40,549 bases of DNA from the NCBI GenBank assembly GCA_947471365.1, contig CANIWQ010000011.1:1-40549 (forward strand), in the 5' to 3' direction. The stretch comes from Gemmatimonadota bacterium. GTDB taxonomy: Bacteria; Gemmatimonadota; Gemmatimonadetes; Gemmatimonadales; Gemmatimonadaceae. The first letter of the stretch is position 1, and the number at the start of each line of letters is the position of its first letter. Position numbers and translations under genes: made by a program. This document shows, piece by piece, positions 21,157 to 37,053 of the stretch. The notes beneath the pieces are model-generated. The model searched no databases, was not told where the DNA came from, and saw only the letters and a list, made by a program, of their open reading frames with translations.

Positions 21157-21166
21157 TGCTTTCCTC

Positions 21167-21928
21167 TCAGGTGTACTGGCCGCCATCGACCTTGATGACC
21201 TCGCCCGTGACGTACCGAGCGCGATCGGACAACAAGAATGCCACCACCGACGCCACTTCGTCGGGTTCACCGAGGCGACCAAGCGCCGACTCTGCAGAGG
21301 CGCGCTCAAGGACAACCGGTGGCACGATGTCGGTCATCTCGGTGCGAATGAAGCCTGGCGCGACGCAGTTCACGTTCACGCCGCTTGGGCCAAGTTCGCG
21401 CGCCAACGTCTTGGTCAGGCCAATCACACCAGCCTTGGACGCCGCATAGTTGGATTGCCCGAACTTTCCGCGCATCCCATTGATCGAGGCGATCGTGACA
21501 ATACGTCCACCCTGTTGGGCGCGAAACAGCGGCGCCGCGGCTCGGCAATACGCAAAGCACCCCTTCAGGTTCACATCGAGCACCGCATCCCACGCCGCCT
21601 CGGTCATCTTCCACGACACGCCGTCACGCGTAATGCCCGCGTTGCACACGATTCCGTCAAGTTTCCCAAGCGCCGCGACGGCCGCCGCGACCGCCGCTTC
21701 GGCAGCCGCGAAATCCGACACATCCGCTTTCAACGCCACCGCCTTGCGACCCATCGCGCGCAACTCCGCCGCGAGTCGCTCGGCGTCGTCAAAGGCACCG
21801 AGATCTACGAGGGCGACATCGCTCCCCTGCTGAGCGAGTTCGCGAGCGATGGCCGCGCCAATGCCGCGGCCACCGCCAGTCACGAGGGTCGCCTGCCCTG
21901 CGAGATCGCGTTTCATCGTCCGTGTCAT
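21167..21928 (-). CDS. SDR-family 3-hydroxyacyl-CoA/3-oxoacyl reductase
   Basis: A short-chain dehydrogenase/reductase (253 aa), FabG-like. Motifs: TLVTGGGRGIG (cofactor), DVSD, NAGITRDG, Ser148 in TIASINGMRG, and Tyr161/Lys165 in YAASKAG, so the catalytic set is complete. It probably oxidises a 3-hydroxyacyl-CoA (such as 3-hydroxypimelyl-CoA after ring opening) or reduces the 3-oxo form. FabG proper cannot be excluded, but no other fatty-acid synthesis genes are nearby. ATG 21928 overlaps the stop of the ring-cleavage hydrolase gene by four bases (ATGA), so the two are translationally coupled. Confidence 0.85.
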   Translation of the reverse strand: MTRTMKRDLAGQATLVTGGGRGIGAAIARELAQQGSDVALVDLGAFDDAERLAAELRAMGRKAVALKADVSDFAAAEAAVAAAVAALGKLDGIVCNAGITRDGVSWKMTEAAWDAVLDVNLKGCFAYCRAAAPLFRAQQGGRIVTIASINGMRGKFGQSNYAASKAGVIGLTKTLARELGPSGVNVNCVAPGFIRTEMTDIVPPVVLERASAESALGRLGEPDEVASVVAFLLSDRARYVTGEVIKVDGGQYT

Positions 21929-22884
21929 GTGAGTTTGGCGCCGCAACCGCCACAGAAGGTGAACTGCTTCGGGATTCCCTTGGCACCGCAGCCGCCACAC
22001 GTCTGGCTGTACGGCCCCCAGAGGAATTCGCTGCTCGCATGTTCGTCAGCGGCTTTCTTGCGAAGACCCATGAAGTCGATTTTTCGCTTCTCCACAAACG
22101 CCTGCATGCCTTCGTACGGCTCAAGCGTCGTGAAGTGCGTGGAGAGCCAGTCGCGCGCATGACCGACGGTCGCGTGCCACGAAGCTTCCTTCCAGTAGTT
22201 CACCTGCTGCTTGGTGTAACGCGTGCACTCCGGGAATTTCTCGAGGAGCTGTTTCACCAGCGCGTTCACTTCGTCGTCGAGCTGGGCGCGCGGGACGACA
22301 CGATTCACCAACCCCCACTCCAAGGCTTTCGCCGCCGGAATGCGCGGATTGAGGAATAGCATTTCGCGCGCGCGCCGGTCGCCGACGTGAATCGACAGCC
22401 ACTGCGTGGCGCCGCCGCAGGCGACGCTCCCGACGCTCGTGCCAACCTGGCCGAGGTAGGTGTCATCGGCCATCACCGCAAGATCGCAGGCGAGCTGCGT
22501 TTCGTTGCCGCCGCCCACCGCGATGCCATTGAGGCGCGCGATGGTAACCTTCCCACTGCGCAGGATGCTTTCGATGTACTTGGCGAACAGCCCCATGTAC
22601 TTGAAGTAGTCGTGCGGGCTTTGCGTGTACGTGCCTGCATACTCTTTCACATCGCCACCGGTGCAGAACGCTTTATCGCCAGCACCCGTCAGCACAATCA
22701 CACCTACGGTGTCGTCATTCGACGCATCGTCGATGGCCGTGATCAGTTCTTGCAAGGTGGACGTCGTGTAGCAGTTGAAGGACTCGGGGCGATTGATCGT
22801 AATACGCCCCACCCAGTCCTTCTTCTCATACAGGATGTCTTTGAATCCGAAGCTGGAAGCCTCTTTGGAGGCGAAATAATTCAT
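21925..22884 (-). CDS. oah: 6-oxocyclohex-1-ene-1-carbonyl-CoA hydrolase-like, with zinc ribbon
   Basis: A crotonase-fold ring-cleavage hydrolase candidate (319 aa). Oah/BamA adds water to 6-oxocyclohexene-carbonyl-CoA and hydrolyses the ring to 3-hydroxypimelyl-CoA. Family-like segments are NRPESFNCYTT, AGDKAFCTGGDVKEYAG, DYFKYMGLF, IAVGGGNETQLACD, GQVGTSVGSVACGGAT, FPECT and WHATVGHARDWL. It lacks the insertion of roughly 50 residues that, as I recall, characterised Oah proteins carry after the VP strand (here VPRAQLDDEV). It also ends in an added CxxC-x11-CxxC ribbon (Cys296, 299, 311, 314). BadI-like 2-ketocyclohexanecarboxyl-CoA hydrolase is the main alternative. ATG 22884 has GGAGAGGG upstream; ATG 22905 is possible. 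Confidence 0.7.
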   Translation of the reverse strand: MNYFASKEASSFGFKDILYEKKDWVGRITINRPESFNCYTTSTLQELITAIDDASNDDTVGVIVLTGAGDKAFCTGGDVKEYAGTYTQSPHDYFKYMGLFAKYIESILRSGKVTIARLNGIAVGGGNETQLACDLAVMADDTYLGQVGTSVGSVACGGATQWLSIHVGDRRAREMLFLNPRIPAAKALEWGLVNRVVPRAQLDDEVNALVKQLLEKFPECTRYTKQQVNYWKEASWHATVGHARDWLSTHFTTLEPYEGMQAFVEKRKIDFMGLRKKAADEHASSEFLWGPYSQTCGGCGAKGIPKQFTFCGGCGAKLT

Positions 22885-22914
22885 GGCTGGTGCCCTCTCC
22901 GTCATTCCACGTGT

Positions 22915-24144
22915 TCAGCGCATGCTGACTTTCAATACCACCGCGGCGGCGCTGTCGCCTGCGGCACAGCCAGTGAACAGTCCATACCCACCACCGGTCA
23001 TCGCGAGATCTTCGATGAGCTCGATCACCGAACGGAGCCCCGTGGGTCCCTGCGGGTGGCCCCACACGAGCGAACAGCCATGTCGGTTCATCCGCTCTGG
23101 GTCGAGCTTGAGTTCGCGCGAGAGGTACACATCGTTGACCGCGAACGGATTGTGCGACGTCACGCTGCCGAGTTGGGTAGCCGTGATGCCCGCCCGTTCA
23201 AGTGCCTGCGCCGCTGCCGGTACGACGGCCATTGGCATGAACCCCTTCTTCACGCGCGCTTGGCCAACCGAGAGGAGCTGCACATCCACCAAGCCAGCCG
23301 GCGCGATTGCACGGGCGCGATCGCGACCAGCGGTGAGCACCATACCGGCATTGCCGTCGGCGGGATGCGTTTGCGTTCCGAAGGTCACCGATCCGCCTTC
23401 GATCACAGGGCGCAATCCAGCAAGGCCCTGCGCGGTGGTGCCATGGACGCCTTCATCGCCGCTCACGGTCGCGACGACCTTTTTGCCACGAGCATCTTTT
23501 ACTTCGAGCGGCCACGGCATGTAGCGCTTGAGGAATGCACTGTCATCAGCGGTAGCAGTGGCATACTGCGCATACCGCAGGAGCGTCATCTCCTCCTGCT
23601 GCTCGCGCGTGATGCCCGCTTCCTTGGCCACGTTCTCCGCGGTCTGCAACATCGAATTCTTGGCCCACGGATCGTGACCAAAGCTATCGAGCACAAGATT
23701 CTCAGCGTCGCCCGTCCCACCAGGACCGGCGGGGTTCGGGTAGAAAACGTGCGGCCCATTGCTCGTGCGGTCGGCCGCGGCGGCAAGGTACACGGTGGCG
23801 CCACCGGTGCTCAGCTCTTGCGCAGCGGTCGCGAGACAGCGCACCGACGTGGCGCAGGCCTGACTGATCGTTGGGCCGGTCGTGTGGCCGAGGCCGGCCA
23901 AACCAGCGAACCAGGGCGTGCCGTAGAACGAGTACTTGCTCGCTACGGTGATGCCGAGGCAGAGACCGTCGATTGTCGCGGGTTCGATATGGCGCTGCGC
24001 GAGCGCCCGCGCGGTGACTTCTGCGGCGAACGGAATCGGCGGAAGCGTTGCCAAACTTCCCTGCCACGAGCAAAATGGCGTCGACCAATATGCGCCATAG
24101 GGAATGAACACATCGTTGAACTGCACGGTCGTACCCCTCGTCAT
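22915..24144 (-). CDS. Thiolase-family acyl-CoA acetyltransferase
   Basis: A thiolase-superfamily protein (409 aa) that probably performs the thiolytic step in beta-oxidation of the ring-opened C7 dicarboxyl-CoA. Seen are the nucleophile Cys97 in SQACATSVRC, the SHNPFAVND segment, GHPQGPTGLRS with the base His363, and a second reactive Cys393 in TGCAAGDSA. It diverges from classical FadA/PhaA and is nearer to the 'acetyl-CoA acetyltransferase / SCP2-like' branch seen in other aromatic and steroid clusters, so chain-length specificity is open. ATG 24144 is preferred; ATG 24168 would add eight residues. Confidence 0.82.
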   Translation of the reverse strand: MTRGTTVQFNDVFIPYGAYWSTPFCSWQGSLATLPPIPFAAEVTARALAQRHIEPATIDGLCLGITVASKYSFYGTPWFAGLAGLGHTTGPTISQACATSVRCLATAAQELSTGGATVYLAAAADRTSNGPHVFYPNPAGPGGTGDAENLVLDSFGHDPWAKNSMLQTAENVAKEAGITREQQEEMTLLRYAQYATATADDSAFLKRYMPWPLEVKDARGKKVVATVSGDEGVHGTTAQGLAGLRPVIEGGSVTFGTQTHPADGNAGMVLTAGRDRARAIAPAGLVDVQLLSVGQARVKKGFMPMAVVPAAAQALERAGITATQLGSVTSHNPFAVNDVYLSRELKLDPERMNRHGCSLVWGHPQGPTGLRSVIELIEDLAMTGGGYGLFTGCAAGDSAAAVVLKVSMR

Positions 24145-24190
24145 CGGGAATCCCACCGGCGCCGGCATGGAGCCGGTGCACCATCCAGCA

Positions 24191-24844
24191 CTATTTGCCT
24201 CCCTTCCTCCGCTTGAGTCCATGCATGACGAGATCGCGCATTTCTTCGCCGATCTGCGACACGCTCCCGTGACGGGACGGTTCGTACCACATGAAAATCC
24301 AGTTGAGCATGCCAAAGATGAACAGCGTCGCGTGGCGACTCTGCCGCGTTTCTTTCGCGGACGCCTGGCGCGCCTGCATCACATCGGTGACCACGGATGT
24401 CATCAACCGATAGTATTTCCGGCGTATCGCTTCGACGGTGCGGTAATCGTCAACGGAGAGCGACTCAAGCTCGAACGTGCAGGCCTTCAACTCGTTCGTG
24501 TGCTTCGCATAAAACTCCAGGTGTCCCGTCAGCAGCCGCGCAAAGCGTTCGTCTGGCGTTCCGGGGAGTGCGGCGATCACCTGCTGCGACTCGAGCAGCG
24601 CCGAGAACGTCCGGTGTTGCAACTGATACAGCAGGTCTTCTTTGCTCGAGAAATAGTGGTACAAACCCGCCAGACTCGCGTCGATCGCTTTGGCGAGGTC
24701 GCGCATGGTCGTTGCTTCGAATCCTTTCTTCGCGATCAGCGCGGCTGCTTTCATCAGCAGTTCGTCGAGTTTGCGTTGCGTTTTTTCGCGAGCCAGTCGT
24801 GGCCCGGGTGCCGTGGGGGTTCGAGCGCGCTTGATGGGTGTCAT
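24191..24844 (-). CDS. TetR-family transcriptional regulator
   Basis: A 217-residue TetR-type repressor. The N-terminal helix-turn-helix is clear: LLMKAAALIAKKGFEATTMRD, then LAKAIDASLAGLYHYFSSKEDLLYQL. A helical ligand-binding domain follows, with a C-terminal FMWYEPSRHG segment. Such proteins in acyl-CoA catabolic clusters usually bind a CoA thioester as inducer; here a ring or ring-cleavage CoA ester is likely. ATG 24844 overlaps the stop of the molybdenum-enzyme gene by four bases, so it is expressed from within the operon it probably controls. The palindrome at 33293-33308 is the best candidate operator. This differs from BzdR or two-component control in Azoarcus and Geobacter. Confidence 0.9.
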   Translation of the reverse strand: MTPIKRARTPTAPGPRLAREKTQRKLDELLMKAAALIAKKGFEATTMRDLAKAIDASLAGLYHYFSSKEDLLYQLQHRTFSALLESQQVIAALPGTPDERFARLLTGHLEFYAKHTNELKACTFELESLSVDDYRTVEAIRRKYYRLMTSVVTDVMQARQASAKETRQSRHATLFIFGMLNWIFMWYEPSRHGSVSQIGEEMRDLVMHGLKRRKGGK

Positions 24845-27687
24845 CCTCGTGCTCCAGTCGCCACGGCGGCCGCTCCACCATTGGCCTTGATGCCGCGTAG
24901 AATCTTCTCTGGGGTGATCGGCAGTTCCGTCACCCGCACGCCACACGCGTTGTAAATGGCGTTTGCAATCGCGCCAAACACGGGAAGCATAGAGCCCTCC
25001 CCGATTTCCTTTGCGCCGAACGGACCACGCGGCTCAAAGCTCTCCACGGCCGCCGTATGAATCGCCGGCGTCTCGGCGATCGTCGGAATGAGATAGTCGT
25101 GGAGATTGGCGTTAGCAAACTTACCGCTGGGACCCACGATCGTGTCCTCAAGCAGCGTCTCACCCAACCCCATGATGATTGCGCCCTCAACCTGACCGTG
25201 CAGCGTCACCGGATTGATCACGGTTCCGGCATCGCTGTAGTCCGTGAAGCGATCGACGGTCACATACCCGGTTTCTAAATCCACGGTCACTTCGGCCACC
25301 GCCGTCGAGAAGCTATAAGCGGGGGAGGTGCCCACCGTGCCGCCCTTGAACTCGCCGCCGAGATGCTTGGGCGGCGAATACGAACCGGTGCCAACCACCG
25401 GACCCTTCTTTGAGAATGCCGCGCGTGCGACATCGGCCCAGGACATTCCGACGGACGGATGTTGCGGCACAAAGATGCGACCATCGCGCACGGTCAGCGC
25501 TGTGGGGTCGCAACCCAACTCTCGGGCCGCCACTTCGCGGAGCTGCGCCGACACATTCGCGGCCGCCATCTTCACGGCATTGCCGCCCATAAGGGTCACG
25601 CGACTCGAATAGGAGCCCAGGTCGAGCGGACTGACCGTCGTGTCACAGTCCGCCATCCACACCCACTCGTACGGTACACCAAGCTCCTCGGCGGCGATCT
25701 GCACCAACACGGTGTCTGAGCCCTGCCCAATCTCCGCCGCGGCAATGTGCAGCGTCACGCCGGTGCCATCCTCGTGTACGCGGATCATGGCGTTGGAGTG
25801 CGGGAAGTCCGATCGGTAAATCGGATATCCCGCGCCCGACACAAAGCCGCCGCAGCCGACGCCAATCCCCTTGCCCGGCGGTAGCTTGCCGCGCTTCTCG
25901 GCCCACCCAGATGTCTCGCGCGCGCGATTGAGTGTGGCAATAAACTCACACGACGAAATGTCGAGCGCATTGCCAGTACGCGTATTCGGTTCCATGGCAT
26001 TCTTGAGCCGAATATCAAAGGGATCGATACCGAGTTCTTCGGCCATCATGTCGAGCAATGATTCAAAGGCAAAGCGCGGCTGTGGTACCCCGTGTCCGCG
26101 GAACGCGCCGGACGCCGGTAGGTTCGTGTACACGCGCGTGCCTTCATACTTGTAGTTCGGAATTTTGTAGAGCGTCGGCAGCATCGACCCCGCGTAGTAC
26201 GCCGTGATCACGCCGTACGACGTATAGGCGCCACCATCCAGCACCACGGTATGTTCCGCGGCCGTGATTGTGCCGTCTTTCTTGAGACCGATCTTGAGAT
26301 CGATGTATTGCTTATGACGGCCGCGGAAGTGCGTGTACATCTCCTCCCGCGTGTACTCCATCGCGACGGGGCGCCCCGTCATCTTAGAAAGGATCGCCGC
26401 GCAGAAATCGAGCGGTGTCGCTTCCGCCTTGGCACCGAATCCGCCGCCGACCGCCGGGCGAATAACGCGAATGCTCCCCATGGGAACGCCGAGCACGCGC
26501 GAGAGCGAGCGGTGCAGATAGTGCGGCGTTTGTGTGGAGGACCAGAGGGTCAGACGATCGCCGTGATGCTCCCAGCGCGCCAGCGCCGCATGCGGCTCCA
26601 TCGGCGACTGGTACGTACGATTGCCAATAAATCGCTCTTCCCGCACGAGGTCCGCCTCGGCGAATCCCTTCTGCACGTCGCCAAAGTGCCAGTCCACGCG
26701 CGTGTTGATGTTGCCCGCGTAGCGCGGCTTTTCTGGATGGATCACTGGCGCACCGGGCGCCATCGCCGCCACCGGATCAAAGACCGCCGGCAGCTCCTCG
26801 TACTCCACTTCAATCAGCTTGAGCGCCGCTTCGGCGGTTGCGTCGTCCAATGCTGCTACCGCAGCCACTTCATCGCCCACGTAGCGGACGCGCTCCTTGG
26901 CGAGAATCTGTTCATCTTCGCGGGCGGGGCTCACGCCGTAGAAGGCGTCTGGCACATCGGCGCCGGTGATCACCGCCAGCACGCCCGGCAAGGCGCGTGC
27001 TTTGGTTACGTCAATGCGCTTGATGATCCCGTGCGCCACCCTGCTTCCCAGAATCTTGCCGACGATCGTGTCGGGGAGGTGCAGGTCCGCCGTGTACTTG
27101 GCACGCCCGGTGACTTTGTCCGGTCCGTCGTAGCGCGTGACGCCGTGACTCACCGTATCGTGATCGCGCACCTGGTCGCGTTCGGCGTGCCCGTGCGGTT
27201 TGGAGTTGAAGGGCACGCCCTCGAACTCTTTCCACCCAGACACCGCTTTGATCATGCGCGGGTATGTTGCGCAGCGGCACAAGTTGCCCGAGAGCGCTTC
27301 TTTGATCTCGCCCTCAGTCGGCGTCGGATTTCTGTCGATGAGCGCCTTCGATGCCATTACCGCGCCGCTCGTGCAATAGCCGCACTGAATCGCCCCGTGC
27401 TTGACGAACGCATGCTGCAGGGGGTGCAATTCACCGTCGTGCGACAGTCCTTCGATGGTCGTAATGCGCTTTCCCTGCGCCGCGACGGCCAGCATGAGGC
27501 ACGAGTTTACCGGATCGCCGTCCACCTGTACGGTGCACGCGCCACAGTCGCCCGTGCCGCATCCCTTCTTGGTGCCGGTCAGCCCAAGGTGTTGCCGCAA
27601 CGCGGCGAGCAGCGTGGTGTTCGGTTTGAGCGCGAGGGTACGATCCTCACCATTGATGTTCAAACGAACGAGGACTTCGGTGCTCAT
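24841..27687 (-). CDS. Fused [2Fe-2S] + molybdopterin subunit of a hydroxybenzoyl-CoA reductase-like enzyme
   Basis: A xanthine oxidase-family molybdenum hydroxylase (948 aa) joining two subunits that are usually separate. Residues 1-160 hold two [2Fe-2S] clusters (Cys43/48/51/63 in KGCGTGDCGACT and beyond; Cys102/105 with Cys137/139 in NLCRCA). From about 175 onward is the molybdopterin domain, with QSPMEPHAALA, AVGGGFGAKAEA, AFRGHGVPQPRFAFE and GPFGAKEIGEGSM, where the C-terminal Glu matches the active-site base. In a benzoyl-CoA cluster the best guess is 4-hydroxybenzoyl-CoA reductase (HcrC-HcrA fused), removing a phenolic hydroxyl; an aldehyde or N-heterocycle hydroxylase is possible. It overlaps the FAD-subunit gene and the TetR gene by four bases each. 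Confidence 0.82.
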   Translation of the reverse strand: MSTEVLVRLNINGEDRTLALKPNTTLLAALRQHLGLTGTKKGCGTGDCGACTVQVDGDPVNSCLMLAVAAQGKRITTIEGLSHDGELHPLQHAFVKHGAIQCGYCTSGAVMASKALIDRNPTPTEGEIKEALSGNLCRCATYPRMIKAVSGWKEFEGVPFNSKPHGHAERDQVRDHDTVSHGVTRYDGPDKVTGRAKYTADLHLPDTIVGKILGSRVAHGIIKRIDVTKARALPGVLAVITGADVPDAFYGVSPAREDEQILAKERVRYVGDEVAAVAALDDATAEAALKLIEVEYEELPAVFDPVAAMAPGAPVIHPEKPRYAGNINTRVDWHFGDVQKGFAEADLVREERFIGNRTYQSPMEPHAALARWEHHGDRLTLWSSTQTPHYLHRSLSRVLGVPMGSIRVIRPAVGGGFGAKAEATPLDFCAAILSKMTGRPVAMEYTREEMYTHFRGRHKQYIDLKIGLKKDGTITAAEHTVVLDGGAYTSYGVITAYYAGSMLPTLYKIPNYKYEGTRVYTNLPASGAFRGHGVPQPRFAFESLLDMMAEELGIDPFDIRLKNAMEPNTRTGNALDISSCEFIATLNRARETSGWAEKRGKLPPGKGIGVGCGGFVSGAGYPIYRSDFPHSNAMIRVHEDGTGVTLHIAAAEIGQGSDTVLVQIAAEELGVPYEWVWMADCDTTVSPLDLGSYSSRVTLMGGNAVKMAAANVSAQLREVAARELGCDPTALTVRDGRIFVPQHPSVGMSWADVARAAFSKKGPVVGTGSYSPPKHLGGEFKGGTVGTSPAYSFSTAVAEVTVDLETGYVTVDRFTDYSDAGTVINPVTLHGQVEGAIIMGLGETLLEDTIVGPSGKFANANLHDYLIPTIAETPAIHTAAVESFEPRGPFGAKEIGEGSMLPVFGAIANAIYNACGVRVTELPITPEKILRGIKANGGAAAVATGARG

Positions 27688-28559
27688 GAGCGTCCCTCCG
27701 CGCGTTCTACCGCCTGCTCAAATGCGCGCTGAGCCAGAACGCTCACCAGTTCACGTCGGAAGTCAGCTGTGCCGCGAACATCGGTAATTGGCAGCGCCTC
27801 AACGGCGCACTGCGCCGCCGCCTTGGCAAAGAGCGCCGCCGATGGCCGCTCTCCCTCGAGCATCGCCGCCGCCGCGCTGATCATGAGTGGTACTGGGGAG
27901 ACCGCACCGAGCACGATGCGTGCGCCCTGCATGCGTCCCTTAGCCACCGTAATTCGAGCGGCGACGGCCGCCACCGCGAGCGACGCGCCTTTGCGTCGCG
28001 AGAATCGCTGATAACTCGTCCCAGACCCAGCGGGCTGCGCCGGTAGCAGAATCGCGACGAGCACCTCGCCTGAGGTGAGCACCGTGCGCCGCGGCCCCAG
28101 AAAGAACTCTTCGGCCGGCATCTCACGCGTGCCATGCACACCAATCAAGCGGACCCGAGCGCCGGAGGCGATCGCCGCGGGCGGCGTGTCCGCGCACGGC
28201 ACCGCACGACAAAAATTTCCGCCGATGGTCGCCAAGCTTCTGATCTGCGCGCTGCCAATCGCTCGGGCCGCGTCGGCCAGCGCGACACTGCGGGCGCGCA
28301 CGAGCGGCGAGGACGCCACCGCTGACACCGTCGTGAGGCCGCCGATGCACAGCCCGCCTCCGTCCTCGGCAATCCCTCGAAGCTCCGGCAAATGATCGAG
28401 CGCAATCAGCTGACGCGCCGTCTCCCGTTCTCGCTGAAAGTCGGGAATGAGTTCGGTGCCGCCGGCGATAAACGCGGCGTCGGCGCCGAGGCTCGAGGCG
28501 AGCGCGCACGCGTCGCTCAAGCTCCCCGGCCGCACATAGGTAAAATCCGGCATCGCCAT
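27684..28559 (-). CDS. FAD-binding subunit of the molybdenum hydroxylase
   Basis: The medium (CoxM/HcrB-type) flavin subunit, 291 aa. It carries the FAD motifs AGGTELIPDF and TIGGNFCRAVPCADTPPA, and FSRRKGASLAVAAVAA in the C-terminal half. Characterised 4-hydroxybenzoyl-CoA reductases have an extra ~40-residue loop in this subunit that binds an additional [4Fe-4S] cluster. Here the matching region (GVHGTREMPAEEF) has no insertion and no cysteines, so electron flow may run as in ordinary xanthine dehydrogenases. Its stop overlaps the start of the large subunit by four bases (ATGA). ATG 28559 is used; ATG 28553 is as good. Confidence 0.87.
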   Translation of the reverse strand: MAMPDFTYVRPGSLSDACALASSLGADAAFIAGGTELIPDFQRERETARQLIALDHLPELRGIAEDGGGLCIGGLTTVSAVASSPLVRARSVALADAARAIGSAQIRSLATIGGNFCRAVPCADTPPAAIASGARVRLIGVHGTREMPAEEFFLGPRRTVLTSGEVLVAILLPAQPAGSGTSYQRFSRRKGASLAVAAVAARITVAKGRMQGARIVLGAVSPVPLMISAAAAMLEGERPSAALFAKAAAQCAVEALPITDVRGTADFRRELVSVLAQRAFEQAVERAEGRS

Positions 28560-28622: not shown

Positions 28623-29480
28623 TCACGCCACCTTCGACGCGGCAGTCCACGCCACATCCTGCTGCGACATCTTCCGATACCGGAACGCACCCCACAGCGC
28701 CGCGCCAATGGAGCCGGCAAAAATCGCGTCGTCGTGCGTCACCACTTCGAGTTTTCCAAGTTCAGCTTCCTTCTTTGCCAACGAATCGCGCAACGCCGTG
28801 AGCAGCCCGGTGTCTGAGGCGAGTCCACCACTCACGAACACCGCCCCCTCAAACTCCAGCGACCGCAACAACCGCACAAAGCGCTCGGCCATACTCTCGT
28901 GCACGCCGCGCAGGATGTCGCTGGTCGTAATGCCACGCGACACCATGTTGATCACGTCAGTCTCGGCGAGCACCGCGCAGATCGAGCTCACCTTTTCCGG
29001 CTTGGTGGCGAGGATCGACAGCTGCCCGATTTCGTCGTGCGACACGCCGAGATAGCGCGCGATGTTCTCGAGGAACTGCCCGGAACCCGACGCGCACTGG
29101 CTGGTCATTTTGTAGTCCTTCACACGGCCGTGGCCGTCCATGGCCACCGCGCGCGTATGAAGTGCGCCCACATCGAGCACCGCGCCAATGCCAGGCGTCA
29201 GAAACAGCGCGCCACGCGCGTGCGTGGTCATGCCGTAGAAATGCCCCGTGGCATACGGCACTTCGCCACCCTCGCCCGTGGTGCCGATGTAGTGGATCTC
29301 GTTCACGCCGGCCATCTCGACTGCGGCATCAAAGGTTTCGTCGACGACTTTCGCAATCTCACGCCGGCGAATGCGCGTCGACACTTGCGCGAGTAACTGC
29401 TCCGAGCCCTCGCCGTTCGTGCGCATCACGGTCACCTTCACGGCGCCGCTCCCAACGTCGATTCCCGCTGTGGTGATCAT
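28623..29480 (-). CDS. bcrD: Benzoyl-CoA reductase ATPase subunit D
   Basis: The shorter ATPase subunit of class I benzoyl-CoA reductase (285 aa). With BcrA it binds two ATP and a bridging [4Fe-4S] cluster and drives electrons onto the BcrBC catalytic half. Seen are GIDVGSGAVKV, YIGTTGEGGEVPYATGHFYG, LDVGALHTRAVAMD, Cys129 in TSQCASGSGQFLENIARYLGV and Cys168 in SSICAVLAETD. The CASGSGQFLENIARYLG run is characteristic of BcrD/BadG/BzdP. It begins one base into the stop of bcrA, completing the order bcrC-B-A-D. Confidence 0.93.
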   Translation of the reverse strand: MITTAGIDVGSGAVKVTVMRTNGEGSEQLLAQVSTRIRRREIAKVVDETFDAAVEMAGVNEIHYIGTTGEGGEVPYATGHFYGMTTHARGALFLTPGIGAVLDVGALHTRAVAMDGHGRVKDYKMTSQCASGSGQFLENIARYLGVSHDEIGQLSILATKPEKVSSICAVLAETDVINMVSRGITTSDILRGVHESMAERFVRLLRSLEFEGAVFVSGGLASDTGLLTALRDSLAKKEAELGKLEVVTHDDAIFAGSIGAALWGAFRYRKMSQQDVAWTAASKVA

Positions 29481-30748
29481 TAGGCCACCATCCGGTTGGC
29501 AAAGAGCGCCGCACCCAGCGCGCCCGTGTAGATACTCTCCGCTGAAATATTCAGCGTGCGCGCGCCATAGTTTTCCTGAATCAATTCGCGAATCGCGCGC
29601 ACCGCCGCGGGATTCTTGGCCACGCCGCCGGTGAAGGTGAACTCATCGTCCACACCACCCGAGCGCGCCAATAGACTCATTGCGCGAATCACGATCGCGC
29701 GGTGCAACCCAGCCAGAATGTCTTCGCGCTTCTCGCCAAGCGACAGCCGCTCGCGGAGTTCCGCGCCCGCAAACACGGTGCAGGTGGAATTGATCTTCAC
29801 GCTCCGCTTGGAGAGTTCCGCTAGCGGACCAAGCTCATGTAGGCCGAGGTTCATTTCGTCCGCGATGTAGCCGAGGTAGCGTCCGCAGCCCGCCGCGCAC
29901 CGGTCGTTCATCTGGAAGCCCGTGACGATTCCCGCGGCGTCCACCTGAATCGCCTTGGTGTCCTGGCCGCCGATATCGAGCACCGTGCGTGTGTTCGGGA
30001 ACATCGCGTGTGCCCCGAGTCCGTGACACAGAATCTCAGAGCGGATCTGTTCTTTCGGGAACGGGAGCCGCGCACGACCGTATCCCGTGCCAACCGTGGC
30101 AGCCGGGCTCAGGTCGTACGCCACCGCAAACTCTACGGCATGGGCCAATCGCGGATTGCTCACCCGAGTCAGCGCATCGCCAATGTGATCGCGGAAGTCG
30201 AGATCCATCGGCTCGTTTTCTACGCGAATGATGCACTTGTCGTACACGCCAATCAGGCGATCGAAACTCACCCCCGTGGGGTCGCCACTCTGCTCGGCAA
30301 TGCGCATAAATGCCGAGCCGACCGCGTCACGGAAGAAGTCCGAACGAAGTTCGGCGGGACGCTTGAATCGTTCTTCTTCTTCCACCGTAATGCGTCGGCA
30401 GATTTCTTCAATCGCGTCACGGAAGGGCGCCTTGAGTTCCTGCGGCGCCGACTTGTCGATCTCCTCGAGCAGCAACTGCTCCAACCGTCGCAGCTGATGC
30501 AGCAACTGCTCCATCACAAAGGCACGCCGCAGATCGCTCACGGCCTGCACCGTCTCCGTCGACTCCACATGCTGCTCAATCAGCCCAAAGCGCGCATTGA
30601 TAAACGCTTCGGTCTTGGCGACCGCCGCCGCCAGATCGTAGTTCGAACGCGAGTTCGTGATGCCTCGACCGAGCACATCGCCGTTCTCATCCAGAATCAC
30701 GGCCTTCGTAGTGGTCGAGCCTAGGTCAATCCCGACGACGCAACTCAT
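29480..30748 (-). CDS. bcrA: Benzoyl-CoA reductase ATPase subunit A
   Basis: The longer ATPase subunit (422 aa) of class I benzoyl-CoA reductase. GIDLGSTTTKAVI opens the ASKHA fold. An insertion of about 140 helical, charged residues (roughly 65-200) follows; it is typical of BcrA/BadF/BzdQ and absent from simple activases. Then come GTGYGRARLPFP, LDIGGQDTKAIQVD, Cys284 in NDRCAAGCGRYLGYIADEM, Cys323 in NSTCTVFAGAE and TFTGGVAKN. All nucleotide and cluster positions are intact. Its ATG overlaps the bcrB stop by four bases. Confidence 0.94.
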   Translation of the reverse strand: MSCVVGIDLGSTTTKAVILDENGDVLGRGITNSRSNYDLAAAVAKTEAFINARFGLIEQHVESTETVQAVSDLRRAFVMEQLLHQLRRLEQLLLEEIDKSAPQELKAPFRDAIEEICRRITVEEEERFKRPAELRSDFFRDAVGSAFMRIAEQSGDPTGVSFDRLIGVYDKCIIRVENEPMDLDFRDHIGDALTRVSNPRLAHAVEFAVAYDLSPAATVGTGYGRARLPFPKEQIRSEILCHGLGAHAMFPNTRTVLDIGGQDTKAIQVDAAGIVTGFQMNDRCAAGCGRYLGYIADEMNLGLHELGPLAELSKRSVKINSTCTVFAGAELRERLSLGEKREDILAGLHRAIVIRAMSLLARSGGVDDEFTFTGGVAKNPAAVRAIRELIQENYGARTLNISAESIYTGALGAALFANRMVA

Positions 30749-32019
30749 GCGCCCTTCCCCGCGCGGCGCGCGTCAATCATTTGGAAATAGCTTTCGAGGC
30801 GATTCTTGATATTGGCCGCCGAGAAATAGCGCGGATCCACCAAATCCGATTCGATGAACGCCCCGGGGATCCCCGTGCGCTTCTCCACCTCACGCAGAAT
30901 CATCAGCTGTCCCGCCGAGAACGAGTTGCACGACTTCACGGAGTTAATCAGGAAGCCGTCGGCCTTGTACTCTTTGATGTAGTTGCAGATCATATCAATG
31001 CGCGACGGCAAGTTCAGATTGGTGTAACAGCCGCTGCAGTAATCCGCGAGCGTACCGAGCGGATCATTGGGGTTGTGGCGGAAGCCAAAGTCATAGGTGC
31101 CGCCGACCTTGGTATACGTCGAGGCCACCACGACAGCTTTTTCGTCGGCGAACATCTTCCAGAAGTCGCGGAAGTGCGTCCAGTTAGGCGGCCCCTCCAC
31201 CACCAGGCGATACTTCTCCCCTTCGAGCGGCCCTTCGGGCGTGATCGGCCCAAGGCCAAGCATCGCGCGCTCCTCCACTTCCTCGCGCAGCGCCTTGTAG
31301 TAGTCCACTCCTTCCTGCGTCCCACGGAACGCACTGAAGATCGGCCCGACGTAGTACACGGTGCCGAAGTATCCATCAATCGGACTCGGCACCTGCTTGC
31401 CAGCCTGCAGCACCGCCACAAGATCGTCCTCGGCCTGCGCCGAGAGCTGCAAGTGATGGCGCAGTTTTTCTTCGTCATACTTGTTGCCGGTCGCCTTCTC
31501 GAGCGCCGGAATCACTGTCTCGCGCAACTGGCGCAGCATATACTCGCGGTGCTCGGGCTCGAGCTTGCCGTCGCCCTGATACGGCACGTGGAACATCACC
31601 GTCGGGCAGTCATACTCCTCACGCAGCAACTCAAACCACTTCATGAAGGTGTAGCAGCCGGTGTACGAGAGGAGGAGCAGATCGGGCTTCGGGAGCTTGG
31701 TGCCACCGGGTCCGATATTCCCCGAGCGCATCATCCCGATGTCGCACTTCACATAGGTGCACACATCCTCGGAGTGCCCGCCGCGCTCAGCCTCAGCGAT
31801 GTAATCGCCAGACTGCTTCCGCATCCCCGACTGCAGCGCATTGATCTCGGGAAGCACGGGGAGCGCACCGAACGAGCGAATGAGCTCGGTCAGATTTCCC
31901 GGCACAAACGTGTACACCACCGGAGTCTTCGTCTCAGGCGCTTTCGCCAACAACTCAAAATGATTGGCGATCATTTCTTTCTGCAGCACCATCGACCGGT
32001 CCTTGAGAACTTCAGCCAT
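30745..32019 (-). CDS. bcrB: Benzoyl-CoA reductase catalytic subunit B
   Basis: The larger catalytic subunit (424 aa), BcrB/BadE/BzdO type. With BcrC it carries the [4Fe-4S] clusters and the aromatic CoA-ester site for the Birch-like two-electron reduction of the ring to cyclohexa-1,5-dienecarbonyl-CoA. Candidate cluster cysteines are Cys87/Cys92 in SEDVCTYVKCDIG and Cys364 in SVKSCNSFSAGQ; DYCSGCYTN adds two more. The length fits BcrB (about 430-440) rather than BcrC (about 380-390). ATG 32019 shares a base with the bcrC stop (TAATG), implying strong coupling. Confidence 0.92.
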   Translation of the reverse strand: MAEVLKDRSMVLQKEMIANHFELLAKAPETKTPVVYTFVPGNLTELIRSFGALPVLPEINALQSGMRKQSGDYIAEAERGGHSEDVCTYVKCDIGMMRSGNIGPGGTKLPKPDLLLLSYTGCYTFMKWFELLREEYDCPTVMFHVPYQGDGKLEPEHREYMLRQLRETVIPALEKATGNKYDEEKLRHHLQLSAQAEDDLVAVLQAGKQVPSPIDGYFGTVYYVGPIFSAFRGTQEGVDYYKALREEVEERAMLGLGPITPEGPLEGEKYRLVVEGPPNWTHFRDFWKMFADEKAVVVASTYTKVGGTYDFGFRHNPNDPLGTLADYCSGCYTNLNLPSRIDMICNYIKEYKADGFLINSVKSCNSFSAGQLMILREVEKRTGIPGAFIESDLVDPRYFSAANIKNRLESYFQMIDARRAGKGA

Positions 32020-33206
32020 TAGGCGGCCCCCCAGAGCTTAATCGAGTCGGCGAAGGTGCCGGCCTGTTCGCGGAACTGCTGAAACTGCCCCGTGTTCTCC
32101 GCGTACTTGAACGCGATACACGGGATCCCTGCTTTTTCCGCGCCATCCCGCAGCATCGGTTGGTCGAGCAGTGCGGGGTCGCAGAAACTCGGTGTCGCAA
32201 AAATAATTCCATCCGCCTTGGCATCGGCCACACGGTTCTTCATCAGGTTGCGCTTGCCGAGCGGATTGATTTCGTAGAGCACCGACGACGCCATGTCGTT
32301 GCGAATGAAGGCGTCGGCCAGCGCACGCACCGGCTCGCCATCATCCCGCACAGTGGTCGTCAAAAAGCGATTGCCGAGGAGAAAGTCATCGTCCACGATG
32401 TAGCAGCCGGCGCGCTCAATACTTTTAATGAGCCCCAGCGGCGGTTGCTCGCAGAACGCGCCCACGACGACGACGCGACTGTTGTCGCGCGGGCGTTTGG
32501 GGTCGGCGGCCACGGCCGCGATGTACTGCTTGGCGTGCGCAATGAACGTCTCAGGCGCCACGCTCTCGCCAGCGCGGAGCAACAGATAGAGCTCTTCGGT
32601 CGGCACATCCCAGGGCCGATCCCGCCGCAGGGCATACAATTCACGAATGACCGCGCGGGCTTCGTTGTACACGGCGATCGAGCGCTGCAAGTCCACATCG
32701 GTCGGACGATGCCCCGATACCTCGGCGAGCCCGTCAATCATGTGGTGCAGCTCGCCGGCCCAGAACTCAGCGGACGCACCTGGATCCGGCACCTGCGGCA
32801 CGTCGATGTACCGCACGTAGGTATCGGGATACAGGAGCTTCCACATGCCCGACAAATTGCGAATCACGTCGCACGTCGAGGGAAAAAGCACCGCCGAGAG
32901 CATGTCGAGCCGCCCCGACTGCGCCAACTCAATCACCGAGCGCGGCAAATGGCAGATATAGGACTGATAGAAAGCGTCGCCGCGAATGATCTCAATGCGG
33001 TCGCCGCCGCCGTGGATCCCCACCGGCAAGAACCCCGTCGCATGGAGCACCTCCCGCGGCGCGTAGACCGGGAGATAGCCGCCCGCCTTGCGCCCCGGAT
33101 TGTCCTCGAGCCACTGTCGAACGACCGTAAAGTCGAGATCTTCAAATATGTCGCGCGCCCAGTCTACGATTGCAGTGCGCGTCATCAACTCGTCGTGCTT
33201 GGCCAT
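32019..33206 (-). CDS. bcrC: Benzoyl-CoA reductase catalytic subunit C
   Basis: The smaller catalytic subunit (395 aa), BcrC/BadD/BzdN type, and the first gene of the minus-strand unit. Visible candidate cluster cysteines are Cys85 in QSYICHLPRS, Cys112 in FPSTCDVIRN and Cys342 in ATPSFCDPALL; this three-position pattern is typical of the family. GGYLPVYAPREVLHATGFLPVGI is the N-terminal family signature. ATG 33206 has GGAAG a few bases upstream. The ~100-base leader before it contains a hairpin and, further up, the operator-like palindrome. Confidence 0.93.
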   Translation of the reverse strand: MAKHDELMTRTAIVDWARDIFEDLDFTVVRQWLEDNPGRKAGGYLPVYAPREVLHATGFLPVGIHGGGDRIEIIRGDAFYQSYICHLPRSVIELAQSGRLDMLSAVLFPSTCDVIRNLSGMWKLLYPDTYVRYIDVPQVPDPGASAEFWAGELHHMIDGLAEVSGHRPTDVDLQRSIAVYNEARAVIRELYALRRDRPWDVPTEELYLLLRAGESVAPETFIAHAKQYIAAVAADPKRPRDNSRVVVVGAFCEQPPLGLIKSIERAGCYIVDDDFLLGNRFLTTTVRDDGEPVRALADAFIRNDMASSVLYEINPLGKRNLMKNRVADAKADGIIFATPSFCDPALLDQPMLRDGAEKAGIPCIAFKYAENTGQFQQFREQAGTFADSIKLWGAA

Positions 33207-33255
33207 GGCAACTTCCAGCGTGCGATGGTGAGGTGCGGCCCGACCAGCGGCCCGT

Positions 33256-33271
33256 ACCCGCTCAAGCGGGT
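33256..33271. other. Palindromic hairpin in the bcrC leader
   Basis: ACCCGCTCAAGCGGGT forms a 6- to 7-bp stem with a tiny loop, 50 bases upstream of the bcrC start and inside its likely 5' untranslated leader. It could be an mRNA-stabilising hairpin, an attenuator or a second protein-binding site. It lacks a T-run in the minus direction, so I do not call it a terminator. Confidence 0.4.
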
Positions 33272-33292
33272 GTTCTTGCGTCTGTTCCTATT

Positions 33293-33308
33293 TCGAACGG
33301 ACGTTCGA
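33293..33308. promoter_or_regulatory. TetR-type operator palindrome
   Basis: TCGAACGgaCGTTCGA: two 7-base half-sites in perfect inverted repeat around a 2-base centre, within the 217-base divergent region between bcrC and the fused dehydrogenase/hydratase gene. Size and symmetry fit a TetR-family site. It would lie at the likely transcription start of the bcr unit and in the promoter spacer of the opposite unit, so one repressor could control both. Confidence 0.55.
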
Positions 33309-33311
33309 TAG

Positions 33312-33343
33312 AATATACTTGAACATTGTACCACGCTCGTCAA
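33312..33343. promoter_or_regulatory. Candidate divergent promoter elements
   Basis: This is the most AT-rich stretch of the region. On the minus strand TTGACG (33338-33343) and TATATT (33312-33317) resemble -35/-10 boxes, but the spacer is 20 bases, longer than ideal. On the plus strand TATACT (33314-33319) could be a -10 box without a good -35. Both are tentative. A plus-strand start here gives a leader of about 100 bases for the fusion gene. Confidence 0.3.
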
Positions 33344-33423
33344 TAGGGGTTACCCTGTCATCGATGGCTCGCGCCGCCGGCCCCCGTGGCCGAGCCGGAC
33401 GGCGGGCCCAGAGGATCAAGGCC

Positions 33424-35451
33424 ATGAGCTACCGCTTCAGGGATCTCAGCATCGACAAGATCGGCGTCGTCGGATCGGGCAATATCGGTCCCGACATCGC
33501 CCTCTTCTTCGCGAAGGCGTTCCACGCCCACGGCGTCCCTGTAGTCGTTGTCGATGTCTCCGCTGACGCCATCGCCCGCGGACGGGCCAACGCCGAGCAG
33601 AAGATCGCCAAGGGGCGCGAAAGCGGCGCCTTCAAGCCGGCCGCCGCCGACGCCATGCTCGCCGCCCTCACCTTCACCACCGACTACGCCGAGCTCGCGG
33701 GCGCCACTCTCGTGATCGAAGCCGCTACCGAAAACCTCGACATCAAGCGCGCCATCTTCACTCAGCTCGAGTCGCTCTGCGGGCCACACACCATCCTCGC
33801 TTCCAACTCCTCCCACATCGAACCGGAGGAGATCTTCGGCGGGCTCGGCGCCGCCACGCGCGCCCGCACCGCCGTCATTCACTATTTCTTCCCCGCCGAG
33901 CGAAACCTGCTCGTGGAGATTGTGCCGGGACGCGACACCAATCCCGTGCACACCCGCGCCCTCATGGGGCTCTACGAAGAAATCGGGAAAATCCCGGTGC
34001 TCGTTGGCGGACGCTTCGGCTACGCCGTCAATCCGGTTTTTGAAGGGCTCTTTCTCGCTGCGGCGCTTGCCGTGGAAGACGGCCTGGGCACAGTCAAAGA
34101 GGTCGACACCGCCGCCAAGATCGCCCTCGGGCTCGGCGTCGGCCCCTTCACCGCCATGAACCTCACGGGCGGCAATCCTATTACGAACCATTCGCTCGAT
34201 GTCATGACATCGAAGCTGAATAGCTGGTTCCGCTCGCCGCGCCTCATGAAAGAAGCGATGGCCGCCGGCAAACCGTGGGACGTGCCCAAGCGCGACGAAA
34301 CAGTCGCGATGACCGCCGCACAACAGGCCACCATCACCGACACCATGCTCGGCGCCTACTTTGGCCTCGCGGGTGAAATCCTCGACAGCGGAATCATCAC
34401 TCTTGCCGATCTCGAACTGGGCGTGGAAACGGGACTCGCCATGCGCGCGCCCTTTGCCATGATGAACAGCCTAGGCGTCAAGCGCGCCCTCGCGCTCGTG
34501 CAAGCGTATGCCGCCTCGCACACCGGATTCCCCGTGCCGCGTTGCCTTACCGCACAGGCCGCCGCCGGCACACCATTCCGTATTGAACATGTGATTCGGC
34601 ACGACGAAGGCGATGTGGCGGTGCTTACCATCCGCCGCCCCAAGGTGCTGAACGCGCTCAACGACGATGTCTACGACCAGCTCACCGCGCACGCGAAGGC
34701 GCTGCGTACCGATGCCGCGATTTCCGCCGTGGTGATCACCGGCTTCGGCCCCAAAGCCTTTGTCTCCGGCGCCGACGTGAACTTCCTCGCCGCCATTAAG
34801 AGCCCAGCCGATGGAGTCACCACCTCCGAGCGCTCCAAAGTGCCGGGCAATCTTTTTGAACAGCTCGGCAAACCGGTCATTTGCGCCATGAACGGCATGG
34901 CGTTCGGCGGCGGGAACGAACTCGCCATGTGCTGCACCGCTCGCCTCATTCGCACCGGACTCGGCGTGGCCGTCGGTCAGCCGGAGGCGAACCTCGGCAT
35001 CGTGCCAGGCGCGGGCGCTACGCAACGGCTACCGCGCCTCGTGGGCGTCGAGAAAGCTGCCGAGATGCTGCGCACCGGTCGCACCCTCTCTAGCCGCGAA
35101 GCGGTGGCGAGCGGGCTCGTACGCGCCGAAGTGGACGGCGATGTGGTGGCCGCAGCCATCGCGCTCGCTCGCGCCGCCGTGCGCGGTGAGGTCACGCTCA
35201 CCCCCATCAATAGCGGCCCAATTGAAACGCCCAGCGCACTCCCCACCGTGGAACTCGGGCACCTGAGCAAAGCCACGGACGCCCTCATTGCGCGCGCCAT
35301 CGTGGAAGGGTGCCGCAAGCCGCTCGCCGAGGGGCTCCGGGTCGAGTCCGAGCTGTTCGGCGCCTGCTGTGCCACCGAGGATATGCGGATCGGCGTGTCG
35401 AATTTCATCACCAACGGTCCGCGCGCCAAGGCAGAGTTCGTGCACCGGTAA
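33424..35451 (+). CDS. 3-hydroxyacyl-CoA dehydrogenase / enoyl-CoA hydratase fusion
   Basis: A bifunctional beta-oxidation enzyme (675 aa) with the dehydrogenase first and the hydratase second. This is the reverse of FadB/FadJ and matches the order of archaeal crotonyl-CoA hydratase/3-hydroxybutyryl-CoA dehydrogenases. Seen are VVGSGNIG (NAD site, residues 15-22), EAATENLDIKRAIF, SSHIEPEEI, and the catalytic-type His153 in VIHYFFPAERN. From about residue 385 is a crotonase domain with FVSGADVNFLA, FGGGNELAMCC and GQPEANLGIVPGAGATQRL, carrying both catalytic glutamates. ATG 33424 has GAGGA upstream. It diverges from bcrC and likely handles enoyl- and 3-hydroxyacyl-CoA intermediates after ring cleavage. 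Confidence 0.9.
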   Translation: MSYRFRDLSIDKIGVVGSGNIGPDIALFFAKAFHAHGVPVVVVDVSADAIARGRANAEQKIAKGRESGAFKPAAADAMLAALTFTTDYAELAGATLVIEAATENLDIKRAIFTQLESLCGPHTILASNSSHIEPEEIFGGLGAATRARTAVIHYFFPAERNLLVEIVPGRDTNPVHTRALMGLYEEIGKIPVLVGGRFGYAVNPVFEGLFLAAALAVEDGLGTVKEVDTAAKIALGLGVGPFTAMNLTGGNPITNHSLDVMTSKLNSWFRSPRLMKEAMAAGKPWDVPKRDETVAMTAAQQATITDTMLGAYFGLAGEILDSGIITLADLELGVETGLAMRAPFAMMNSLGVKRALALVQAYAASHTGFPVPRCLTAQAAAGTPFRIEHVIRHDEGDVAVLTIRRPKVLNALNDDVYDQLTAHAKALRTDAAISAVVITGFGPKAFVSGADVNFLAAIKSPADGVTTSERSKVPGNLFEQLGKPVICAMNGMAFGGGNELAMCCTARLIRTGLGVAVGQPEANLGIVPGAGATQRLPRLVGVEKAAEMLRTGRTLSSREAVASGLVRAEVDGDVVAAAIALARAAVRGEVTLTPINSGPIETPSALPTVELGHLSKATDALIARAIVEGCRKPLAEGLRVESELFGACCATEDMRIGVSNFITNGPRAKAEFVHR

Positions 35452-35496: not shown

Positions 35497-37053
35497 ATGT
35501 CTGCAACGGACGAAGGCGAACCGCACAAATACATCATCGCCTTCGCGGTGACGCTGGCGTCGTTGCTGCAGGTGATTGATGCGTCCATTGTGAATGTTGC
35601 CCTCCCCGATATGATGGGGAACCTCGGCGCGTCGCTCGACGAAATTGCTTGGGTCTCCACGGGCTACATTCTCGCCTCGGTGATTGTCATTCCCCTCACC
35701 GGGTGGCTGGGGTCGTTTTTCGGGCGGAAGCGCTACTTCGTGGGGTCTGTGCTGCTGTTCACCGCCGCGAGCTTCATGTGCGGCGCCTCGCATTCGCTGG
35801 GCGCGCTGATTTTCTGGCGCATCGTGCAAGGCATCGGCGGCGGCGCGCTGATGACGACGTCGCAGGTGGTGCTACTCGAGGCATTCCCGCGCAAAGAAGC
35901 GGGCACCGCCATGGCACTGTTCGGCCTCGGCGTGATGGTGGGTCCCACCCTCGGCCCCACGCTCGGCGGATGGATCACGGACAACTACAACTGGCCGTGG
36001 ATTTTCTATATCAACGTTCCCCTTGGCATTATTGCCGCGCTGATGATCGCCGAGTACGTGCACGATTCTCCGCACCACCGGCGAGCACCGAGCGTGGACT
36101 ACACAGGGATCGCGCTCCTGATCATGAGCGTTGCCGCGATGCAGTACCTGCTCGAGCACGGACAGCGCGAAGACTGGTTCGATTCACGGATCATGGTCGG
36201 CCTTGGCATTGTCAGCGTCGTGGCCGGTACGGCGTTGGTGTGGCGCGAACTGACCATTGAGCATCCGGTGATCGACTTCCGCGTACTGCGTCACCGTCAG
36301 ATGTGGGTTGGTACCATCCTCGGCATCGTGATGGGAATGGGGCTGTTTGCGTCGGTCTTCACACTCCCCGTGTTCTTGCAAGGCAACCTTCGCATGACGG
36401 CCCAGCAGACCGGCATGGTGCTCTTACCCGGCGCGGCCGCGACGGCCCTCTCGATGGTCGTGTCCGGACGACTCAACGCCCGCTACGATCCGCGCGCACT
36501 GGTTGCCGCGGGAGCGCTCATGTTCGTGGGCGCGATGTGGCAACTTTCGCTCATTACCGGCGATAGTGGCAGCCCCGATTTCTTTTGGCCGCTCATTATT
36601 CGCGGCTTCGGACTCGGCTTGATGTTTGTGCCGCTCACGACCATCACGCTCGCCGACTTGTCGCACATTGAACTTCCGCAGGCGACGGGGCTCTTTAATT
36701 TCTTTCGTCAGCTGGGCGGATCGCTGGGCATTGCCGGCATCGCCACCGTGGTGTCACACAACACGGTGCTGTATAAGGCCACGCTCACCGAGCATGTGAC
36801 GCGATTTGACCCCGCAAGTCTGGCACGGATTTCCATGTTCGAGCGCGCCTTTCAGGGACGCGGGGCCGATTTTGTCACCGCCCATCAACGCGCCCTCGCC
36901 ATCGTGGATCGGCAGATTGCTGGACAAGCCAGCGTGATCGCCTATTCGCGAACCTACATCTTGGCCGCGCTCTTGGTCTTTTCCATTATTCCCCTGCTCG
37001 CCCTCGTTCGGGTCACCCGAAGCACCGTTAAACACGAGATGATTCTCGAGTAG
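35497..37053 (+). CDS. DHA2-family MFS multidrug exporter
   Basis: A 518-residue inner-membrane drug:H+ antiporter of the 14-helix EmrB/QacA type. Family features are QVIDASIVNVALPDM in helix 1, the loop 2-3 motif GSFFGRKRYF, GPTLGPTLGGWITD (motif C of antiporters) in helix 5, and WPWIFYINVPLGI. The remaining hydrophobic segments fit 14 helices. No EmrA-type periplasmic adaptor or TolC gene adjoins it, so it may act alone. Being next to the aromatic genes, it might export aromatic acids or toxic intermediates, but a hairpin separates it from the upstream gene and the link is only positional. Confidence 0.92.
   Translation: MSATDEGEPHKYIIAFAVTLASLLQVIDASIVNVALPDMMGNLGASLDEIAWVSTGYILASVIVIPLTGWLGSFFGRKRYFVGSVLLFTAASFMCGASHSLGALIFWRIVQGIGGGALMTTSQVVLLEAFPRKEAGTAMALFGLGVMVGPTLGPTLGGWITDNYNWPWIFYINVPLGIIAALMIAEYVHDSPHHRRAPSVDYTGIALLIMSVAAMQYLLEHGQREDWFDSRIMVGLGIVSVVAGTALVWRELTIEHPVIDFRVLRHRQMWVGTILGIVMGMGLFASVFTLPVFLQGNLRMTAQQTGMVLLPGAAATALSMVVSGRLNARYDPRALVAAGALMFVGAMWQLSLITGDSGSPDFFWPLIIRGFGLGLMFVPLTTITLADLSHIELPQATGLFNFFRQLGGSLGIAGIATVVSHNTVLYKATLTEHVTRFDPASLARISMFERAFQGRGADFVTAHQRALAIVDRQIAGQASVIAYSRTYILAALLVFSIIPLLALVRVTRSTVKHEMILE

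Follow-up and report, generated by a model that had tools for sequence, protein, structure and literature searches.

A palindrome conserved upstream of benzoyl-CoA pathway genes in Gemmatimonadota and other phyla, a predicted operator of a TetR protein encoded in the same operon

The regulation of the benzoyl-CoA pathway is known mainly from cultured Proteobacteria. How might it be controlled in Gemmatimonadota? The excerpted text of an ecogenomic survey places benzoyl-CoA degradation genes in MAGs of this phylum (PMC10581226), and among the papers listed in our literature searches, no title or abstract opening described bcr or box genes of this phylum as controlled by a TetR. We analyzed a stretch of 40,549 nucleotides, hereafter the window (contig CANIWQ010000011.1 of assembly GCA_947471365.1), from a genome whose near relatives are Gemmatimonadota MAGs. 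Its minus strand carries a unit running from bcrC (frame start at 33206) to the gene for Had (12131), in which ORFs overlap or have short gaps, and its plus strand carries a divergent fusion gene. The original prediction was that a single TetR-type palindrome in the gap between them, next to an AT-rich stretch, would control both units. This gap spans positions 33207-33423, and the palindrome, TCGAACGgaCGTTCGA, indeed lies inside it, at 33293-33308, with bcrC (minus strand) on one side and the fusion gene (plus strand, ATG at 33424) on the other; the AT-rich stretch (33309-33320) abuts it. Is this palindrome an operator, for which protein and which genes, and what would release it? From the comparisons below, we consider it highly likely that a TetR operator lies over the bcr promoter, through which the bcr operon and probably the fusion gene would be repressed until a CoA thioester, most likely benzoyl-CoA, releases the repressor. 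The relevant features of the window are:

12131-24193, minus strand: rest of the unit, encoding a thiolase, an Oah/BadI-like hydratase, an SDR, a Dch-like hydratase, a ketopantoate-reductase/HGD-D fusion (KPR-HGD-D), two BadF-type ATPases, an HGD-D protein, an acyl-CoA ligase and Had
24194-24844, minus strand: tetR, predicted repressor of 217 aa (PF00440, PF17932)
24841-27687, minus strand: fused [2Fe-2S] and molybdopterin subunit, 4-hydroxybenzoyl-CoA-reductase-like (PF01799, PF02738, PF20256)
27684-28559, minus strand: molybdopterin-dehydrogenase FAD subunit, 4-hydroxybenzoyl-CoA-reductase-like (PF00941, PF03450)
28623-29480, minus strand: bcrD (TIGR02261, 334 bits, above cut-off)
29480-30748, minus strand: bcrA (TIGR02259, 570 bits, slightly below the cut-off of 578)
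30745-32019, minus strand: bcrB (TIGR02260, 686 bits, above cut-off)
32019-33206, minus strand: bcrC, benzoyl-CoA reductase subunit C (TIGR02263, 480 bits, above cut-off)
33293-33308, no strand: predicted operator TCGAACGGACGTTCGA, core GAAC-N4-GTTC (exact in 10/10 readable gaps, core kept in 26/26 units)
33309-33320, no strand: AT-rich patch tagaatatactt, adjoining the palindrome; it would hold the bcr -10 (minus strand) and the TATACT of the fusion gene (plus strand)
33338-33343, minus strand: predicted -35 box TTGACG of the bcr promoter (TTGAC 5' of the palindrome in 22/26 units)
33424-35451, plus strand: 3-hydroxyacyl-CoA dehydrogenase/enoyl-CoA hydratase fusion gene (PF02737, PF00725, PF00378)

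The unit has genes for all four subunits BcrA, BcrB, BcrC and BcrD, i.e., it is an ATP-dependent benzoyl-CoA reductase operon in which BcrA scores 570 bits for a cut-off of 578. Had is above the cut-off of TIGR03201, and the genes of the rest of the unit have the same order in relatives. The likely start of the fusion gene is the ATG at 33424, with AGAGGA at 33410-33415; a longer ORF would begin at a TTG at 33319. The expectation that the divergent units separate an upper from a lower pathway was not borne out. The minus-strand unit has the ligase, BcrCBAD, the hydratases, Had and the thiolase and thus holds nearly the whole pathway, so that "upper and lower" do not match the divergent split.

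Some other aspects of gene content deserve mention. The fused subunit at 24841-27687 has 948 aa and nearly full-length matches in many relatives. After the bcr genes, positions 15125-20459 hold a second reductase-like set (KPR-HGD-D fusion, two BadF-type ATPases, HGD-D protein), possibly another dearomatising enzyme. At loci of other phyla (e.g., L062, L076 and L078), this fusion is present along with a BadF-type ATPase and Had, but homologues of bcrCBAD were not detected in the sequence examined. A gene for an MFS transporter (35497-37053) follows the divergent fusion gene in the window and in G006, and was not found beside it at the other loci read. Finally, PaaA is above the cut-off (507 bits) at G000:C44:5827-6693 in the window's genome, which therefore probably also has an oxygen-dependent phenylacetate route.

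Taken by itself, the palindrome is close to chance level. By simple arithmetic, around 2.5 random palindromes with 7-bp arms and a 2-bp spacer are expected per 40.5 kb, and the window has 9 matches to the palindrome with up to three mismatches, for a mean of 5.2 in shuffled sequence. Hence, its significance must be drawn from the comparison with relatives. The scan of the source genome (3.3 Mb) that had been proposed returned the exact palindrome a single time, together with five places at one mismatch that established no wider regulon: one (7168 in the window) is in a GGDEF frame, those on contigs C194, C1 and C33 are in long open frames, and the fifth is C106:10297. Extra operators in the window were also rejected, as the candidates at 20495 and 30643 (two mismatches) and at 7168 (one mismatch) are all inside the reading frames of annotated genes. 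The first two recur, at two mismatches, in only some near relatives, and we thus read them as coding coincidence.

We searched for the TetR protein in the source genome and 60 relatives (61 genomes in all) and compared the flanks of its orthologues. The exact palindrome was found between bcrC and the fusion gene in all ten readable loci (the window, G006, G009, G011, G023, G041, G028, G018, L054 and G016, the latter counted via its fusion side, since its contig ends after the fusion gene and the palindrome). In an alignment of eight loci, the gap is otherwise largely diverged except among the nearest relatives. GTDB contigs were then scanned with the TetR alignment, which yielded 34 loci. TetR loci are found in Gemmatimonadota, Acidobacteria, Krumholzibacteriota, Zixiibacteriota, Eisenbacteria, Deltaproteobacteria (Myxococcota in the tree labels) and Planctomycetota, and L085 is an alphaproteobacterial outlier (29% identity).

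Among the 27 units with a TetR orthologue, 26 have the motif with at most two mismatches upstream of the first gene (13 exact, 19 within one mismatch). This first gene varies, being bcrC, hcr (hcrFAD) or tetR itself, and the core GAAC-N4-GTTC is invariant in the 26 units. As a control, 629 scrambled half-sites with the same letters reached at most 4 of the 27 units (mean of 0.03). We counted duplicate loci once (G011/L052, G009/L059, G041/L056, G028/L057, G056/L065), included G016/L083 through the fusion-side contig end L124, and left out the loci with a contig end or missing upstream sequence (G009:C60/L055, G017/L053, G029/L060, L058, L061, L068, L070, L077 and L079). At L074, the motif is absent within 400 bases of the presumed first gene (the best match has five mismatches) and absent at up to two mismatches across the locus. 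It is also absent at up to two mismatches in the loci L084 (Planctomycetota, 37% identity) and L085, both outside the 27. That the palindrome is the product of chance, or an RNA hairpin or terminator devoid of regulatory role, is practically ruled out, provided the alignments are right: such palindromes are expected a few times per window and loose matches are near background, but this one is conserved at the same place across phyla and no terminator-like site was found at it.

At the level of genomes, the exact motif occurs in 20 of the 27 that have the TetR (E <=1e-29, a cut-off chosen after the table was seen) and in 2 of the 34 that lack it (Fisher p 2.3e-8, which overstates the association because relatives are not independent). 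The exact copies of G017 and G046 are in an open frame away from TetR, hence 18 of the 27 genomes have the exact motif at the TetR unit. The genome G016 carries 10 exact palindromes (L123-L132), for 0-1 in each of the other 60 genomes; nine are in long open frames and one is the operon copy L124. The genome G009 has two bcr clusters (C144 and C60), with TetR orthologues 76% and 68% identical to the window's, and contig C60 ends after bcrA.

Which protein would bind this site? As originally predicted, the bcr unit encodes its own TetR (24194-24844, minus strand). It has PF00440 and PF17932 above cut-offs, a TetR fold in the structure model (pLDDT 84.8) and TetRs as best structural matches, and the comparison of loci puts a putative palindromic operator near the promoter it would regulate. 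No second protein with PF17932 was found in the source genome. The nearest solved folds are PfmR (3vpr), AibR (5k7h, with isovaleryl-CoA), an unnamed Bordetella TetR and KstR2 (4w97), with FadR (3whc) also near. Some of these have acyl-CoA ligands, but PfmR, AibR, KstR2 and FadR are only around 20-27% identical to the window's TetR and act in other pathways. A search of PDB sequences returned general TetR kin only, and a search of plasmids gave one match only, at 29.5%.

The gene tetR is the seventh of the bcr operon and does not adjoin the palindrome, from which it lies around 8.4 kb downstream. One might thus think that another regulator binds the palindrome while the TetR controls something else. 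We regard this as very improbable. Seven loci where tetR is the first gene have the motif upstream of tetR itself, and no further regulator gene was seen among the operon products. Moreover, the link between motif and protein extends to a sister TetR clade (33-39% identical), where 15 of 16 cases have the motif no more than 60 bases from tetR, with at most one mismatch (9 exact), and is lost outside it: none of 15 further TetRs (25-34% identical) has it at this threshold and one has it at two mismatches. The helix-turn-helix pattern RD[LV]...SL[AG]G[ML]Y is retained to a large extent in the clades that have the motif and usually differs elsewhere, with exceptions such as L061 (in a motif-bearing clade, pattern not kept) and L084 (a like helix, no motif). 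The palindrome is also absent in four distant TetR loci (L149, L150, L156 and L158; 27-30% identity). Two of these, L149 and L150, adjoin other bcr-like or Had genes, and L150 and L158 have variants such as TTGAACAGGAGTTCGA upstream. Judging from this distribution, the palindrome is very probably the operator of the bcr operon's own TetR.

To see which genes this operator would control, one can look at the promoters. The sequence TTGAC is found 24-37 bases 5' of the palindrome, in the direction of the unit, in 22 of the 26 units (8 of 26 for the best other permutation), which suggests that the operator covers the start region of the promoter. In most of the hcr-first and tetR-first units, TAnnnT follows 16-18 bases past TTGAC, its last base falling shortly before the palindrome. 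The bcrC group conserves the -35 equally well but is looser in the spelling of the -10, the candidates in the window giving a spacing of 17-22. A generic sigma-70 promoter scan of positions 33150-33480 gave nothing above threshold, hence the promoter consensus is weak in the window. Comparison of sequences establishes the motif, its position, the promoter box and the motif's tie to the TetR clade.

The proposal that one palindrome serves two divergent units stands for the bcr direction, where the promoter box is conserved, and control of the fusion gene is plausible from where it lies and from a TATA-like element. Across the palindrome, all 10 readable loci have this gene as the divergent neighbour, and L073 and L075 also have a divergent fusion gene (35% identical). 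On its strand, TATACT or TATAAT is found within 5 bases past the palindrome in 8 of the 10 loci (TATACT at 33314-33319, plus strand, in the window); G016 has TATGTT and no such element was found after the palindrome in G028. Alternatively, the operator may serve the bcr operon only, the fusion gene having a separate promoter that is unregulated or differently regulated. The TTGAC box and the position of the operator suit the bcr direction, hcr-first loci keep the operator though no divergent fusion gene was found at it, and a proper -35 was not found for the fusion gene; in the two-promoter model the bcr direction alone has independent support. The constancy of the divergent neighbour and the TATA-like element of most loci argue against this alternative, which we find rather unlikely, and we retain as plausible that the fusion gene is repressed through the same palindrome.

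The company kept by TetR orthologues gives indications on the inducer. G056 (locus L065) and the genome of L064 have a TetR orthologue around 50% identical, with the motif directly upstream at no more than one and two mismatches, respectively. Both clusters have, above cut-offs, benzoate-CoA ligase (763 and 717 bits), BoxC (913 and 879) and BoxB (557, at a contig end, and 852), i.e., the genes of the aerobic box route. The box label is firm for these two loci, where BoxB, BoxC and the ligase are on the contig. No match to BcrB was found in G056 and no hcr-like gene was detected in either locus. Two further cases are L072, with a benzoate-CoA ligase on the TetR contig, and L069, with BoxB elsewhere in the genome. 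In the phylogenetic tree, L064, L065, L069 and L072 form one clade (support 96/87), placed as sister to the bcr TetRs of Gemmatimonadota (14 rows, 100/99), so that this four-member box clade is nested inside a clade from anaerobic clusters. In the more distant 33-39% identical clade, the neighbours include an enoyl-CoA hydratase, an aldehyde dehydrogenase and a 3-oxoadipyl-CoA thiolase. In 11 of the 15 cases with the motif, the contig of the TetR also encodes BoxB-like or PaaA-like proteins, all below family cut-offs.

Since benzoate and benzoyl-CoA occur in both the aerobic box route and the anaerobic bcr route, benzoyl-CoA is the likeliest inducer, and our best guess from gene company. A response of the TetR to a CoA ester is suggested by the acyl-CoA-binding TetR structures nearby and by the box-cluster orthologues. 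It might answer another CoA ester, e.g., 4-hydroxybenzoyl-CoA or a later beta-oxidation intermediate: hydroxybenzoyl-CoA-reductase-like genes adjoin tetR in the operon, and many loci keep hcr beside tetR without bcrCBAD in the sequence examined. Against this, the two firm box clusters combine BoxB, BoxC and benzoate-CoA ligase with the lack of a detected hcr-like gene, although ligand range can shift within 50% identity. We find this alternative less likely than not, though somewhat more probable than an operator restricted to the bcr operon, and prefer benzoyl-CoA.

From these elements we infer repression, benzoyl-CoA as inducer and control of the fusion gene, in a mechanism that might be as follows. 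A TetR dimer on 33293-33308 would cover the -10 and start region of the bcr promoter (-35 TTGACG at 33338-33343) and block the 21-kb bcr operon, tetR included; as tetR is inside the repressed operon, the repressor would limit its own synthesis. The same dimer would cover the region upstream of TATACT, and the fusion gene would probably be repressed too. Upon entry, an aromatic acid would be activated to its CoA thioester, most likely benzoyl-CoA, which would bind the TetR, release the DNA and allow both units to be made.

Beyond this locus, we lean towards the view that the TetR-operator module is a benzoyl-CoA switch travelling with benzoyl-CoA degradation across phyla (Gemmatimonadota, Acidobacteriota, Krumholzibacteriota, Zixiibacteriota, Eisenbacteria, Myxococcota and Planctomycetota). 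It would have passed from anaerobic to box clusters in Gemmatimonadota with the operator kept, and the same site before further ring-epoxidase-like sets in the sister clade would make the operator a mark of aryl-CoA catabolism as a whole. The spread of the module and its presence in both oxygen regimes are a stronger result than the operator itself. A conserved and readily searched operator, together with its TetR, offers a way to test regulation in uncultured Gemmatimonadota and in other phyla, and the module points to benzoyl-CoA as the signal. The operator can be used to find pathway members, including clusters without classical bcrCBAD, and the pair would be a compact candidate biosensor.

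How does this compare with known systems? The control described here was predicted to be unlike that by BzdR or BamVW, and this contrast holds. According to the excerpts of the papers cited here and below, BoxR and BzdR are XRE-type regulators of the box genes for the aerobic route and the bzd genes for the anaerobic one (PMC6449761, PMC10803450). As here, related regulators serve both benzoyl-CoA routes and box clusters are divergent, and the travelling TetR module would be their counterpart. The window's protein is a TetR_N plus TetR_C_24 protein with no XRE-type DNA-binding domain, which makes the TetR system a parallel to this group and not a member of it. BadR acts on an alicyclic CoA pathway, with operators in the gap between divergent genes and a CoA-ester effector (PMC9795900), but it is of the MarR family and its operator is CAAN4TTG.

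A TetR is already known to control a pathway of this kind, which narrows the contrast originally drawn. In Azoarcus sp. CIB, the TetR repressor MbdR controls the anaerobic degradation of 3-methylbenzoate and responds to 3-methylbenzoyl-CoA as inducer (PMC4424350). It resembles the system proposed here as a TetR repressor of an anaerobic aroyl-CoA pathway, with an operator over promoter and start regions and with the pathway's first CoA ester as inducer. It differs in that mbdR has its own promoter, that its cluster has several operators, and that these read ATACN10GTAT, which the conserved motif GAAC-N4-GTTC does not fit. Its structure (4uds) matches our TetR model at rank 30 (Z 17.3, rmsd 3.2 over 184 residues, 14% identity). 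PaaR of Thermus thermophilus HB8 is a phenylacetyl-CoA-responsive TetR with the published site CNAACGNNCGTTNG; the consensus obtained by in vitro selection, AACnAACGTTnGTT, departs from it somewhat (PMC6651687, PMC9493321). The sequence CGAACGGACGTTCG at 33294-33307 fits the published site letter for letter; PaaR further has a CoA-ester effector and a gene inside an operon that it controls, as proposed here for the bcr TetR. PaaR differs in that it controls phenylacetate genes, whereas the operon here is of the bcr/had/oah type and the one PaaA above cut-off in the genome is on contig C44. Hence, on these published accounts, MbdR and PaaR are the TetR precedents for the present system.
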